Below, in pieces: positions 14,062 through 17,996 of a stretch of 64,000 bases of DNA. The translations under genes and the position numbers were made by a program. The first letter of the stretch is position 1, and the number at the start of each line of letters is the position of its first letter. The notes under the pieces are model-generated. The model searched no databases, was not told the origin of the DNA, and was given only the letters and a program-made list of their open reading frames with translations. This stretch comes from Flavobacterium fontis (GTDB lineage: Bacteria > Bacteroidota > Bacteroidia > Flavobacteriales > Flavobacteriaceae): contig NZ_FQVQ01000004.1 in NCBI RefSeq assembly GCF_900129405.1, forward strand, positions 124,001 to 188,000. The letters run 5' to 3'.

Positions 14062-14078
14062 ATGGGTTGAATTTTATT

Positions 14079-16253
14079 ATGATTGCAATTACAGAAAAAA
14101 CGCGAAAAGATCTCGAATTTCACACCGTTTTGGAAACTATTTCCCAGTACTGTGTCACTGAATTAGGACTGGAAAAGGCGCAACAAATAGCCCCTTTTTC
14201 ACACAAAGATCAGTTGATGGCTGCATTGCACCAAACTTCGGAGTATGTTTCCTCGTTTTCCAACAACAATGCAATACCCAACCATGGGTTTGACACCATT
14301 TCGTCCGACATACAACTGCTCTCTATTGAGGATAGTTTCCTTGAAGTGGAGAGCTTTCGTAAAATCGCCACTATTTCAGAAACGGTCAATACCCATTTAC
14401 TCTTTTTAAAAAAATTCAACACCTACTATCCTTCGCTGCATCTTTTGGCTTCTGAAGTCGAGTTCACCAAAGTCATTATTCAAAAAATAGAAGCTGTTAT
14501 TGACAAATATGGAGTTATTCGCGACAATGCTTCTCCCGATTTGGTCAATATCCGTCGGAATATCAACATGGTGCGCGGCAAAGTAAACCAAAGTTTTGGA
14601 CAAGCGCTAGTGCATTACCAAAGTTTGGGGTATTTGGACGATATTAAAGAAACGGTTGTTGAAAACCGTAGGGTATTGGCCGTCTTAGCCATGTACCGAC
14701 GTAAAGTCAAGGGGTCCATTATGGGCAGTTCCAAGACAGGAAGTATTGCCTACATTGAGCCCGAAGCGACACTGAAGTATAGCCGCGAACTGAATCAATA
14801 TGAATACGAAGAACGGGAAGAAATCATTCGCATTTTAAAACGACTTACCTTCGAGATTCGTCCTTTTGCTGAATTGCTCCACCAATACCAAGATTATTTA
14901 AGTACCATCGATGTCATTCATGCGAAAGCCCGCTATGCGCAGCTCATTCAAGGGGTACTTCCCACGATCACCGAGGAAAAAAGAATTTTTCTTCGGGAGG
15001 CTTACCATCCGATTTTGTATGTGACCAATAAGCGGAAAAATGAAGTTACCTATCCGCAAACCCTAGAATTAACCCAAGACAATCGTATTATTGTGATTTC
15101 TGGGCCCAACGCCGGAGGAAAAACGATTGCTTTGAAAACGGTGGGACTATTGCAATTGATGTTGCAATCGGGCATTCTTATTCCGGTGCATGAACGAAGC
15201 GAAACCTTTTTGTTTGACCGTATCTTAACCGACATTGGAGACAATCAATCGATTGAAAATCATTTGAGTACCTACAGTTATCGGTTAAAAAACATGAATT
15301 ACTTTTTAAAAAAATGCAATGCCAAAACCTTGTTTCTCATTGATGAGTTTGGAACAGGCTCCGATCCTGATTTAGGAGGCGCGTTGGCTGAAGTGTTTTT
15401 AGAAGAATTTTACCATCGGGAAGCCTTTGGGATTATCACCACCCACTATACCAATTTAAAGATTCTAGCCAACGAATTGCCTTGTGCTACCAACGCCAAT
15501 ATGTTGTTTGACGAGCAATCGTTGGAGCCGCTCTACAAATTACATCTCGGTCAGGCGGGGAGCAGTTTTACCTTTGAAGTGGCCCAAAAAAATGGCATTC
15601 CTTATGGATTGATCAATCGGGCAAAAAAGAAGGTAGAAGGCGAGAAAGTTCGCTTTGATAAAACCATTGCCAAACTTCAGAAAGAGCGTAGCCGTATGGA
15701 AAAAACATCGGAAAACCTTAAAGAAGAGGAAAGCAAAGCTCGGGAAGAAAGCAAACGATTGGAACAAACCAATAAGAAAATTCAGGAAAAATTGGAGCGC
15801 TATCAGGAAATGTATGATGCCAATCAAAGGTTGATTTATATGGGCCAGAAAATCGATGATATTGCGGAGAAATATTTTTCGGATAAAAATAAGAAAGTAC
15901 TTATTGGAGATTTCCTCAAGTTGGTGGAGATAGAAAATTCGAAGCGAAAAAAAATCAGCGCCAAAGAGAAAAAACAAAAAGAAATCGTTCAAAAAAAGGT
16001 GGTTGCCGAATTGAATGTTGCCGTGGAATCCATTCGAACAGAAAAAAAAGAAAAGAAGATAAAGACCCAACAAGAAGCGAGCGCCAAACCCAAGATGGCC
16101 TTACAACTTGGAGATCGCGTTCGGATGACCGATGGGAAAGCGGTGGGTACTTTGGATAGTATTGAAAAAAATAAGGCTACGGTAAATTACGGTCTGTTCA
16201 CGTCCAAAGTGAGTCTCGAAATGTTGGAATTTGTAGAACGCCCCAAGAAATGA
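14079..16253 (+). CDS. mutS2: MutS2-family ATPase lacking the Smr nuclease domain
   Basis: A 724-residue MutS2-type protein. The core and clamp regions lead into the MutS ATPase with Walker A GPNAGGKT (around residue 342), Walker B TLFLIDEFGTGSDPD, and the ITTHYTNLKILA segment. A Lys/Glu-rich coiled coil follows (about residues 520-670) and then a small beta domain (LGDRVRMTDGKAVGTLDSI). The protein ends there: the C-terminal Smr endonuclease domain of canonical MutS2 is missing. MutS2 proteins act on branched DNA or on collided ribosomes; without Smr this one is likely to act through ATP-driven clamping or splitting. It overlaps the next gene by ATGA. Confidence 0.9.
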   Translation: MIAITEKTRKDLEFHTVLETISQYCVTELGLEKAQQIAPFSHKDQLMAALHQTSEYVSSFSNNNAIPNHGFDTISSDIQLLSIEDSFLEVESFRKIATISETVNTHLLFLKKFNTYYPSLHLLASEVEFTKVIIQKIEAVIDKYGVIRDNASPDLVNIRRNINMVRGKVNQSFGQALVHYQSLGYLDDIKETVVENRRVLAVLAMYRRKVKGSIMGSSKTGSIAYIEPEATLKYSRELNQYEYEEREEIIRILKRLTFEIRPFAELLHQYQDYLSTIDVIHAKARYAQLIQGVLPTITEEKRIFLREAYHPILYVTNKRKNEVTYPQTLELTQDNRIIVISGPNAGGKTIALKTVGLLQLMLQSGILIPVHERSETFLFDRILTDIGDNQSIENHLSTYSYRLKNMNYFLKKCNAKTLFLIDEFGTGSDPDLGGALAEVFLEEFYHREAFGIITTHYTNLKILANELPCATNANMLFDEQSLEPLYKLHLGQAGSSFTFEVAQKNGIPYGLINRAKKKVEGEKVRFDKTIAKLQKERSRMEKTSENLKEEESKAREESKRLEQTNKKIQEKLERYQEMYDANQRLIYMGQKIDDIAEKYFSDKNKKVLIGDFLKLVEIENSKRKKISAKEKKQKEIVQKKVVAELNVAVESIRTEKKEKKIKTQQEASAKPKMALQLGDRVRMTDGKAVGTLDSIEKNKATVNYGLFTSKVSLEMLEFVERPKK

Positions 16254-16695: not shown

Positions 16696-16703
16696 TACCT
16701 TTG
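16696..16703 (+). promoter_or_regulatory. Candidate -7 element for the 45-residue peptide gene
   Basis: TACCTTTG, a match to the Bacteroidota -7 consensus, placed 25 bases before the ATG of the small membrane peptide. No convincing -33 element is visible. Confidence 0.45.
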
Positions 16704-16727
16704 GGTATAATTTAAAATAGAAAAGAG

Positions 16728-16865
16728 ATGCTTACTCGTATTTTACCTTTGTATTCATGGGACAACGGTGCTTTTGTTATGATTGTCATTTTCGGACTTG
16801 TCATTATTGGTTTAATTGGGGCTGTGCTATTAATGGCTTCGGGCTCTAAAAACAAAAAAGACTAA
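16728..16865 (+). CDS. 45-residue single-pass membrane peptide
   Basis: A short gene that automatic annotation could easily miss. The product starts MLTRILPLYSWDNGAFVM, has one hydrophobic helix (about residues 16-37, rich in Ile, Val, Gly and Leu) and ends in a basic tail GSKNKKD. Support: a purine-rich AAAAGAG just before the ATG, a -7 element 25 bases upstream, and an intrinsic terminator whose stem contains the stop codon, so promoter, frame and terminator fit together. The charge pattern suggests an inner-membrane peptide with the C-terminus in the cytoplasm. Function unknown; it could be a small accessory subunit or a regulatory peptide. Confidence 0.72.
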   Translation: MLTRILPLYSWDNGAFVMIVIFGLVIIGLIGAVLLMASGSKNKKD

Positions 16866-16886
16866 GCACAAAAGCTTAGTCTTTTT
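16857..16886 (+). terminator. Intrinsic terminator overlapping the small peptide stop codon
   Basis: A perfect 11-bp stem, AAAGACTAAGC / GCTTAGTCTTT, with loop ACAAAA and a short T-run. The left arm contains the last Lys and Asp codons and the TAA stop of the peptide gene. The flanking A and T runs make it a plausible terminator also for transcripts arriving from the other side. Confidence 0.85.
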
Positions 16887-16914: not shown

Positions 16915-17967
16915 TTATTGCTTGATAATTTTGTGAGATGCTGAACCATTTTCAGAAACAATATTTAAAATATAGGCACCTGGTGCTAAGTCAACCACAT
17001 TGATTTGTGCTTGTGTTGCCGCTTCCATAGTAGCCGTTTTTACAACTCTACCGTTGATATCTGTAATGGTATATGATGTAAAAGCTGAAGGAGAATTTAC
17101 ATTGAAAACATCTGATGATGGATTAGGGTACACGCTCAATGAACCTTCAGAAGCGATTTCTGTTGTATTCAATAAAGTATCTGTGCTTGAAGCACGGACT
17201 ACCAAGTTATCCATCACCATAGTTGTAGAATCTGAGTTTGGTGCAGCAGTAGTGTTTCCTGAGAAAGAAACAAAATCGATTTCAGCAGGATCAGTAGCAG
17301 TAGAACTTCCTACAACTCCAACACCTGCAGCAGCAATACCAGGCCCTTTGATAAGCACTTGACGCGTAGTCACATTATAAGAAACTCCAATTCTGCTCAC
17401 CGTATTTGCAGGCAATTGAATACCAGGTGCAGCCGCTAAACTGTAGTTATAATTCCCAACAGGATTACCTGTAGGGGTAGAATAAGCAACTAAAAACAAC
17501 TCACGGGTTGCTGCACGAACTACAAAACCACCAAGCACTCGGTCTCCCGCGGCATTAAAAATGTATACACCAAAAGTGTTACGGCTGGTAGAAGTTCCGT
17601 CACCGGGATTGATATCTACCTCCATTTCAATAATGTTATTTCCAGAAGTACGGGTAGCCCATATCGCAGGAAAACCATCTTGCCACATGAAACGTGAGCC
17701 TTTATCACCATCAGGACCTTCTAGAGAAAGTGCCAAATCACCAGCATTCACTGATACAATTTGAGCATTGGTAACAGCAGCATTTGTTGATGTTGTAGGA
17801 GCTGTACCGTTTGAAGCAAAAAAGAAATAATCTCCTTGACCAGGGGTAGCGCCAGTAATATTATCACTAACATTTCCTACCGTTAATGTATTAAAGTTTT
17901 CCGTCAACAAGACTTGCGCTTGAAGTGCCACGGGTAACATAAAAACAGCGAGTAATACTTTTTTCAT
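16915..17967 (-). CDS. Secreted protein with T9SS type A sorting domain
   Basis: A 350-residue T9SS cargo protein. A signal peptide (MKKVLLAVFMLPVALQAQ) is followed by a beta-rich domain of about 230 residues, starting LLTENFNTLTVG and rich in Thr, Ser, Asn and Gly, looking like a jelly-roll or laminin G-like carbohydrate-binding or adhesion domain. Residues about 275-350 are the sorting domain (LSVYPNPSSDVFNV, YTITDINGRVVKT, LAPGAYILNIVSENG, ending SHKIIKQ). There is no recognisable enzyme motif. A longer in-frame ATG at 17991 overlaps a -7 element, so the ATG at 17967 is preferred. Confidence 0.88.
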   Translation of the reverse strand: MKKVLLAVFMLPVALQAQVLLTENFNTLTVGNVSDNITGATPGQGDYFFFASNGTAPTTSTNAAVTNAQIVSVNAGDLALSLEGPDGDKGSRFMWQDGFPAIWATRTSGNNIIEMEVDINPGDGTSTSRNTFGVYIFNAAGDRVLGGFVVRAATRELFLVAYSTPTGNPVGNYNYSLAAAPGIQLPANTVSRIGVSYNVTTRQVLIKGPGIAAAGVGVVGSSTATDPAEIDFVSFSGNTTAAPNSDSTTMVMDNLVVRASSTDTLLNTTEIASEGSLSVYPNPSSDVFNVNSPSAFTSYTITDINGRVVKTATMEAATQAQINVVDLAPGAYILNIVSENGSASHKIIKQ

Positions 17968-17988
17968 TGATTTATTTTTAAGTTTTTC

Positions 17989-17996
17989 CAAATTTA
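17989..17996 (-). promoter_or_regulatory. Candidate -7 element for the T9SS cargo gene
   Basis: On the minus strand TAAATTTG, a match to TAnnTTTG, 22 bases before the ATG at 17967. It overlaps the alternative ATG at 17991, which argues against that start. The -33 region shows no clear TTG. Confidence 0.45.

Follow-up and report, generated by a model that had tools for sequence, protein, structure and literature searches.

In leader-peptide attenuators, a terminator follows directly after a short open reading frame (ORF). In Escherichia coli, the tR2 terminator is almost fully repressed when it lies a few base pairs past a stop codon and is freed beyond ~27-30 nt, and this repression disappears without translation; the same study also records that some terminators overlap the upstream gene (PMC4824070). 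In Bacillus subtilis, terminators lie a few nucleotides after stop codons, and a review describes this distance as standing in for "runaway" transcription, which is uncoupled from translation (PMC7858274). Bidirectional terminators, for example those of Bacillus cereus (PMC5381666), serve two convergent genes with one hairpin, undergo compensatory switches in the stem and are under stronger constraint than one-way terminators.

We analyzed a 64,000-nucleotide stretch of the Flavobacterium fontis genome (contig NZ_FQVQ01000004.1; hereafter the window), which contains a 45-codon gene for a membrane protein with a predicted bidirectional terminator at its coding end. The hairpin would resemble the B. 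cereus type in all three respects, but here the left arm is coding sequence that holds the stop codon, and the C-terminus of the protein changes with the stem. With the runaway-type terminators of B. subtilis (PMC7858274), it shares a position within ribosome reach of the stop codon; it differs from them in that the overlap, known from sequence alone, is maintained while the tail of the protein turns over. One stretch of DNA would be under two selections, for the codons of a protein tail and for both arms of a two-way terminator. A literature search of titles and abstract openings found no such stop/terminator overlap in Bacteroidota and no account of the 45-aa protein. Our best explanation of the whole, held with moderate confidence, is a ~180-nt unit with a two-way terminator in its coding end, at which termination would be uncoupled from translation and whose product would be an accessory subunit in the membrane.

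The gene occupies positions 16728-16865 of the forward strand (ATG to TAA, 45 codons; translation MLTRILPLYSWDNGAFVMIVIFGLVIIGLIGAVLLMASGSKNKKD) and is preceded by the purine-rich leader AAAATAGAAAAGAG. Its product consists of an N-terminal LYSWDNG, one hydrophobic helix and a basic C-terminal tail; the start codon, leader, helix and tail are all present as a preliminary description of this DNA had read them. The most hydrophobic 21-residue window covers residues 16-36, and an AlphaFold2 model (mean pLDDT 79.9) contains a helix at residues 15-38 and nothing further. By the positive-inside rule, the basic tail suggests an N-out/C-in topology. A 47-aa reverse ORF with a TTG start (16712-16855, minus strand) covers the gene.

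Upstream, the same description had claimed a -7 element, and one is present: the box TACCTTTG (16696-16703, forward strand) stands 32 nt upstream of the ORF and fits the Flavobacterium consensus TAnnTTTG, which lies at -12 to -5 in F. psychrophilum (PMC9723704). The placement of the box implies a transcription start at ~16708 and a 5' leader of ~20 nt. Of the 81 window-like loci (best 80 of 94), 73 carry TAnnTTTG at a distance of 24-40 nt upstream of the ATG, compared with 57 of 4050 random windows that contain it, and at least four of the eight loci without it miss by one base. The gene would therefore form a self-contained transcription unit of ~180 nt, with its own -7 promoter, a ~20-nt leader, 45 codons and an intrinsic terminator. 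Its upstream neighbor is a DCC1-like thiol-disulfide oxidoreductase gene (PF04134; 16250-16663, forward strand). In 70 of the 81 loci (best 80 of 94), such a gene is one of the four ORFs closest upstream, and in 67 it is the closest; in 11 it is not among them. In four of these 11 (L150, L152, L153 and L154) the terminator still overlaps the stop codon; the gene may therefore travel with its promoter and terminator as one unit.

The predicted terminator spans 16855-16886 on both strands and has a 13-bp stem with 4 G-C pairs and a 6-nt loop: left arm AAAAAGACTAAGC at 16855-16867, loop at 16868-16873 and right arm GCTTAGTCTTTTT at 16874-16886. The left arm holds the coding end and, wholly within it, the stop codon TAA (16863-16865, forward strand). 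The stop codon had been located correctly before, but the stem had been given as 11 bp, where pairing yields 13. The 43-nt hairpin has a folding energy of -17.2 kcal/mol (z -7.2), compared with -17.6 kcal/mol (z -5.9) for its reverse complement. It shows the G+C-containing stem, short loop and U-tract of an intrinsic terminator. A consensus terminator scan lists it on the minus strand only; our own scorer finds it on both strands.

Overlap was called by one scoring rule: the core of the stem had to start ahead of the last base of the stop codon. Of the 81 window-like loci (best 80 of 94), 46 overlap, 16 have a terminator downstream and 19 have none scored; these loci came from a scan with eight window-like proteins, so 46 of 81 overstates the rate. 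Sixteen evenly drawn loci of the genus divide into 6 with overlap, 6 with a downstream terminator and 4 with none scored, and 29 loci of other genera into 0, 8 and 21, respectively. Three loci scored as lacking a terminator (L157, L169 and L196) look overlapping by eye. For comparison, a 15% sample of the same genome (476,667 of 3,084,632 bases; 389 ORF ends) holds 53 terminators behind other ORFs of 80 aa or more, of which 1 overlaps its stop codon; around the 80 named loci (best 80 of 94) the figure is 1 of 123, the 700 ends there including homologous neighbors counted repeatedly. The overlap pointed out in the preliminary description is therefore real and kept in part of the genus, and is, as far as scoring predicts, a trait of part of Flavobacterium. 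It is not needed for the protein, since 35 of the 81 window-like loci (best 80 of 94) and 29 of 29 loci of other genera are without scored overlap.

Of the 46 overlap loci (best 80 of 94), 25 have the whole stop codon within an arm, and 21 have all or part of it in the loop. These loci are related: on a tree of the MutS2-like gene (MutS_V domain), which lies upstream of the DCC1-like gene (14067-16253, forward strand) and is present in 69 of the 81 window-like loci (best 80 of 94), overlap requires just 6 changes among the 69. The combination of tail and terminator type (five states) requires 14 changes on the same tree. Overlap persists as tails switch among KD, KND and KNDQ, with the 3' arm changing to match. 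Position -4 is occupied by an A-T pair in 18 KD loci and by a C-G pair in 11 ND loci; among NDQ loci, the third base of the Gln codon is in a G-C pair in 10, an A-T pair in 4 and a G-T pair in 2, and that of the Asn codon in a C-G pair in 15 and a T-A pair in 1. The predicted stem and the tail thus change together at silent and replacement sites alike. Tail residues (D, ND or NDQ) and lysine codon choice appear to follow the hairpin, and the relatives with and without overlap provide a natural series for asking whether ribosomes disturb terminators in Bacteroidota.

The convergent gene at 16915-17991 (minus strand) codes for a protein with a sorting domain at its C-terminus (Por_Secre_tail). 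Its end lies 49 nt from the stop codon of the peptide, and the two genes probably share the terminator. All 46 overlap loci (best 80 of 94) face a convergent gene at a median gap of 37 nt, and these genes belong to six families (30, 8, 5, 1, 1 and 1 loci). As in leader-peptide attenuators, a short ORF is followed at once by a terminator, but in 80 of the 81 window-like loci (best 80 of 94) the first ORF of 100 aa or more beyond it is convergent, and the peptide is conserved family-wide; an attenuator was rejected because these 80 loci offer no co-oriented gene downstream to regulate. All 46 overlap loci score as terminators on the opposite strand, but so do 30 of the 35 loci without overlap (best 80 of 94), so two-way use alone does not require the overlap. 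Convergence alone does not bring it either, since it is found in 0 of 26 other convergent terminators in the genome sample and in 1 of 33 around the named loci (best 80 of 94). Nor does space force it, since the 49-nt gap in the window would hold the hairpin without overlap.

Codon choice in the tail bears on the same point. In overlap loci, AAA outnumbers AAG by 87 to 5 at the last two Lys codons and by 43 to 27 at the other Lys codons of the tail; in other loci, the corresponding counts are 56 to 13 and 34 to 13. The preference for AAA at the last two positions indicates that the lysine A-run is also the U-tract of the other strand. The near-palindromic hairpin would stop transcription on either strand: the A-rich lysine codons before the stem would supply the U-tract for the convergent gene, and the T-run beyond the stem would supply that for the peptide gene itself. 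A bidirectional terminator written into the coding end would explain both the choice of lysine codons and the opposite-strand scores. In six loci (L159, L171, L172, L177, L186 and L188), the convergent gap is 14-15 nt and the right arm enters the coding end of the convergent gene; here one hairpin may lie in two ORFs.

The close packing of stop codon and stem had been taken to suggest that translation and termination could be coupled, which our comparison does not support as stated. Short distances between stop codon and stem are general in this genome: 25 of the 53 terminators scored in the sample start less than 20 nt after a stop codon or overlap it, 18 of them lie within 10 nt and 1 more overlaps. 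Such distances are elsewhere a sign of uncoupling, and together with their use as a proxy in the review (PMC7858274) they make uncoupled termination the more likely option at the 45-aa gene. Termination on the opposite strand, scored in 46 of 46 overlap loci (best 80 of 94), is moreover a simpler reason than coupling for conservation of the hairpin. RNA polymerase would finish the 180-nt transcript, and the hairpin would fold, before a ribosome reaches the stop codon; termination would then be independent of translation, and ribosomes would later melt the hairpin in order to terminate.

Under coupling, a ribosome at the stop codon would instead cover the left arm and block the hairpin, and polymerase would read into the antisense of the convergent gene. 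The tR2 precedent (PMC4824070) speaks for this, the distance from stop codon to stem being negative here, and so does the frequency of overlap in part of the genus, which greatly exceeds the background. We consider coupling unlikely nonetheless: terminators near stop codons are common in the genome sample, as where transcription outruns translation (PMC7858274), the overlap is kept beside six families of convergent genes, which argues against any particular regulated target, and scored overlap is absent from 35 of 81 window-like loci (best 80 of 94) and from all 29 loci of other genera. The last count slightly lowered the probability that we give to coupling. It also lowers a related reading, to which we give a small probability, in which the terminator is gated by translation: heavy translation would hold the left arm open and permit antisense read-through, and ribosomes passing later would strip the mRNA of its protective 3' hairpin. 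If true, the peptide would limit its own output with no need for a regulator, and in part of Flavobacterium the overlap would be maintained by selection, with C-terminal residues changing to follow the stem.

The comparative data point to a translated gene. The preliminary description had recognized no relatives of the peptide; searches now place it in a family-wide protein family. A single-sequence search found relatives in 16 of 41 genomes of the genus at E<=1e-4 and in 45 of 249 genomes of the family at E<=1e-3, its own genome included in both counts. A profile built from 38 members (A1) matched 66 of 199 genus genomes with one match each, the weakest three being doubtful. Among the 38 members, L8, G14 and F22 are invariant and N13, M18, V25 and L29 nearly so. 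Outside the family, two wider draws that also contained family members gave nothing convincing: 196 genomes of the order yielded 10 matches inside and 4 weak, partial ones outside (best E 0.0029), and 296 genomes of the phylum yielded 10 inside and 5 weak, partial ones outside (best E 0.0008). The window protein falls below the cut-off in Pfam (best 12.6 bits vs 29.3) and matches no NCBIfam model. Pfam matches of family members are weak and scattered, PHROGs gave three single-member matches (best E 0.0046), and solved structures gave two chance-like matches (E 0.06). The locus adds a membrane microprotein family to which searches of Pfam and NCBIfam assigned no model.

The expectation that synonymous changes would prevail over nonsynonymous ones was borne out. 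Relative to its nearest relative, L147, the window gene has dN 0.070 and dS 0.78, and relative to L149, dN 0.081 and dS 0.86, with dN/dS ~0.09 in both cases; codon position 3 holds 32 of the 46 differences to the two nearest relatives. Median pN/pS is 0.15-0.29 across six length groups, of which the 46-aa group is a single pair. No frameshift was found in the 81 window-like loci (best 80 of 94), all of which were found by protein match, and in-frame length counts were left out of the evidence for selection, since they are true by construction. This purifying selection supports the earlier claim of a translated membrane peptide, and on sequence evidence the 45-residue membrane-protein gene is real, conserved and so far found in one bacterial family. 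In a distant copy near position 1501 of L238 (G046), an internal in-frame TAG replaces the Trp codon of the motif; this copy has either decayed or reads TAG in an unusual way. The gene was found in 0 of 4 genus genomes of at least 5 Mb, and the 16 carriers at E<=1e-4 in the same 41-genome search measure 2.5-4.7 Mb, which suggests that it was lost in a large-genome clade.

A type I toxin with an antisense-RNA antidote would likewise be a short hydrophobic peptide, and 2 of the 38 members match Hol_Tox weakly (best E 0.002). The presence of one match per genome, purifying selection and conservation of the -7 box on the gene's own strand make a toxin very unlikely. ArfA is made from an mRNA that loses its stop codon: transcription ends inside the ORF and the resulting non-stop mRNA is policed by tmRNA. 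An ArfA-like switch of this kind would fit a small protein with a basic tail whose terminator overlaps its coding end. It is nevertheless highly improbable here, because in all 46 overlap loci (best 80 of 94) the transcript is predicted to end past the stop codon, so the mRNA would keep it, and because the AlphaFold2 model of the 45-aa protein has a central membrane helix; a non-stop gene of the ArfA type was rejected on the former count. Finally, the ORF could be open by chance alone, across sequence that serves as terminator and promoter, given that it is very short, that it overlaps a non-coding element and that one reverse frame over it is also open in 47 of 81 window-like loci (best 80 of 94), probably as a by-product of hydrophobic codons. 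The dN/dS ratio, the concentration of differences at codon position 3, the homologues throughout the family and the three invariant residues leave this with hardly any probability.

As to function, the peptide would most likely be an accessory subunit that associates, in N-out/C-in orientation, with another inner-membrane complex. In 26 loci outside the genus, the gene immediately upstream on the same strand is a thiol, sulfur or redox gene in 15: MBL-rhodanese in 4, thioredoxin in 4, SulP in 2, TPMT in 2, DsbD_2 in 2 and a weakly cytochrome c-like gene in 1. The two SulP genes are putative, being named from their sequence rather than from a domain match. Within ~10 kb, 12 of the 26 have an MBL-rhodanese gene, and 9 of the 26 are without any of the eight sulfur/redox families counted. 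In G238, the start codon of the family member lies 14 nt inside a DsbD_2 gene that is the last of a cbb3 cluster (L098 9928-9941), and in G154 the family member begins ~10 nt after a DsbD_2 gene that ends such a cluster (L096 9755); these two genomes, of other genera, are the only 2 of 26 in which it adjoins a cco cluster. A thiol/sulfur or microaerobic respiratory complex would be the best lead for a partner, as a lead rather than a result, and the link of the family to thiol/sulfur handling or microaerobic respiration is weak.

Co-occurrence was compared for four families. MBL-rhodanese (67 of 70 genomes) and DCC1-like genes (34 of 34 genomes) are near-ubiquitous, so their presence is uninformative and the 45-aa protein does not track either. 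A ccoN match over the cut-off was found in 28 of 28 genomes with the gene vs 34 of 45 without (p ~0.003 for all genomes together, 0.10 for those of the genus and 0.03 for the others, with kinship ignored); ccoN is one of the four families tried, and the genomes without the gene include some small ones. In the DCC1-like, CydA and ccoN tests, two genomes of lower quality (G014 and G028) were left out of the 16 carrier genus genomes. The 14 non-genus carriers in the MBL-rhodanese, CydA and ccoN tests are those of the 26 without a nearby MBL-rhodanese gene. Non-carriers of the genus were defined by single-sequence genus, order-draw and profile searches, among the misses listed. Among 45 candidate non-carriers, G046, G116 and G133 are clear profile matches, G076 is a partial one and G051 and G054 are weak ones; G046, G051, G054 and G076 were counted in the MBL-rhodanese test and left out of the CydA and ccoN tests.

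The cbb3 oxidase is our leading candidate for the partner, and a tentative one, with perhaps a modest chance of being correct. CcoM and CcoQ are single-helix proteins. They are small subunits of this oxidase in P. stutzeri, of 36 and 61 aa, respectively, and CcoM offers a precedent for small extra cbb3 subunits (PMC10433244). The 45-aa protein is likewise a small membrane protein, but it is not known to be related to them in sequence, and the window genome has a separate CcoQ-like ORF. An identity as CcoQ was rejected on this ground, as the separate ORF, of 65 aa, fills the ccoNO-ccoP gap in the cco cluster of that genome. Apart from ccoN, the gene names in this cluster are assumed from position. 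CcmD (PF20077) was also rejected: its profile matches 3 of 38 members at E<=0.1 (best 0.00064), the window genome has no match over the cut-off, and the locus of the gene is not among its two matches there. A CydX-like small subunit of cytochrome bd oxidase would fit the position of the gene next to cydAB in G197 and within 5 kb of it in G173. This identity has next to no probability, since CydA has no match in 11 of the 14 carrier genus genomes, the window genome among them. Cytochrome bd was rejected as a partner for the same reason, CydA being found neither in the window genome nor in 10 of the 13 other carriers of the genus. The window genome also has two adjacent MBL-rhodanese fusion genes (G000:C26:1814-4767), 73% and 57% identical to the query, which are possibly a sulfide-handling pair.
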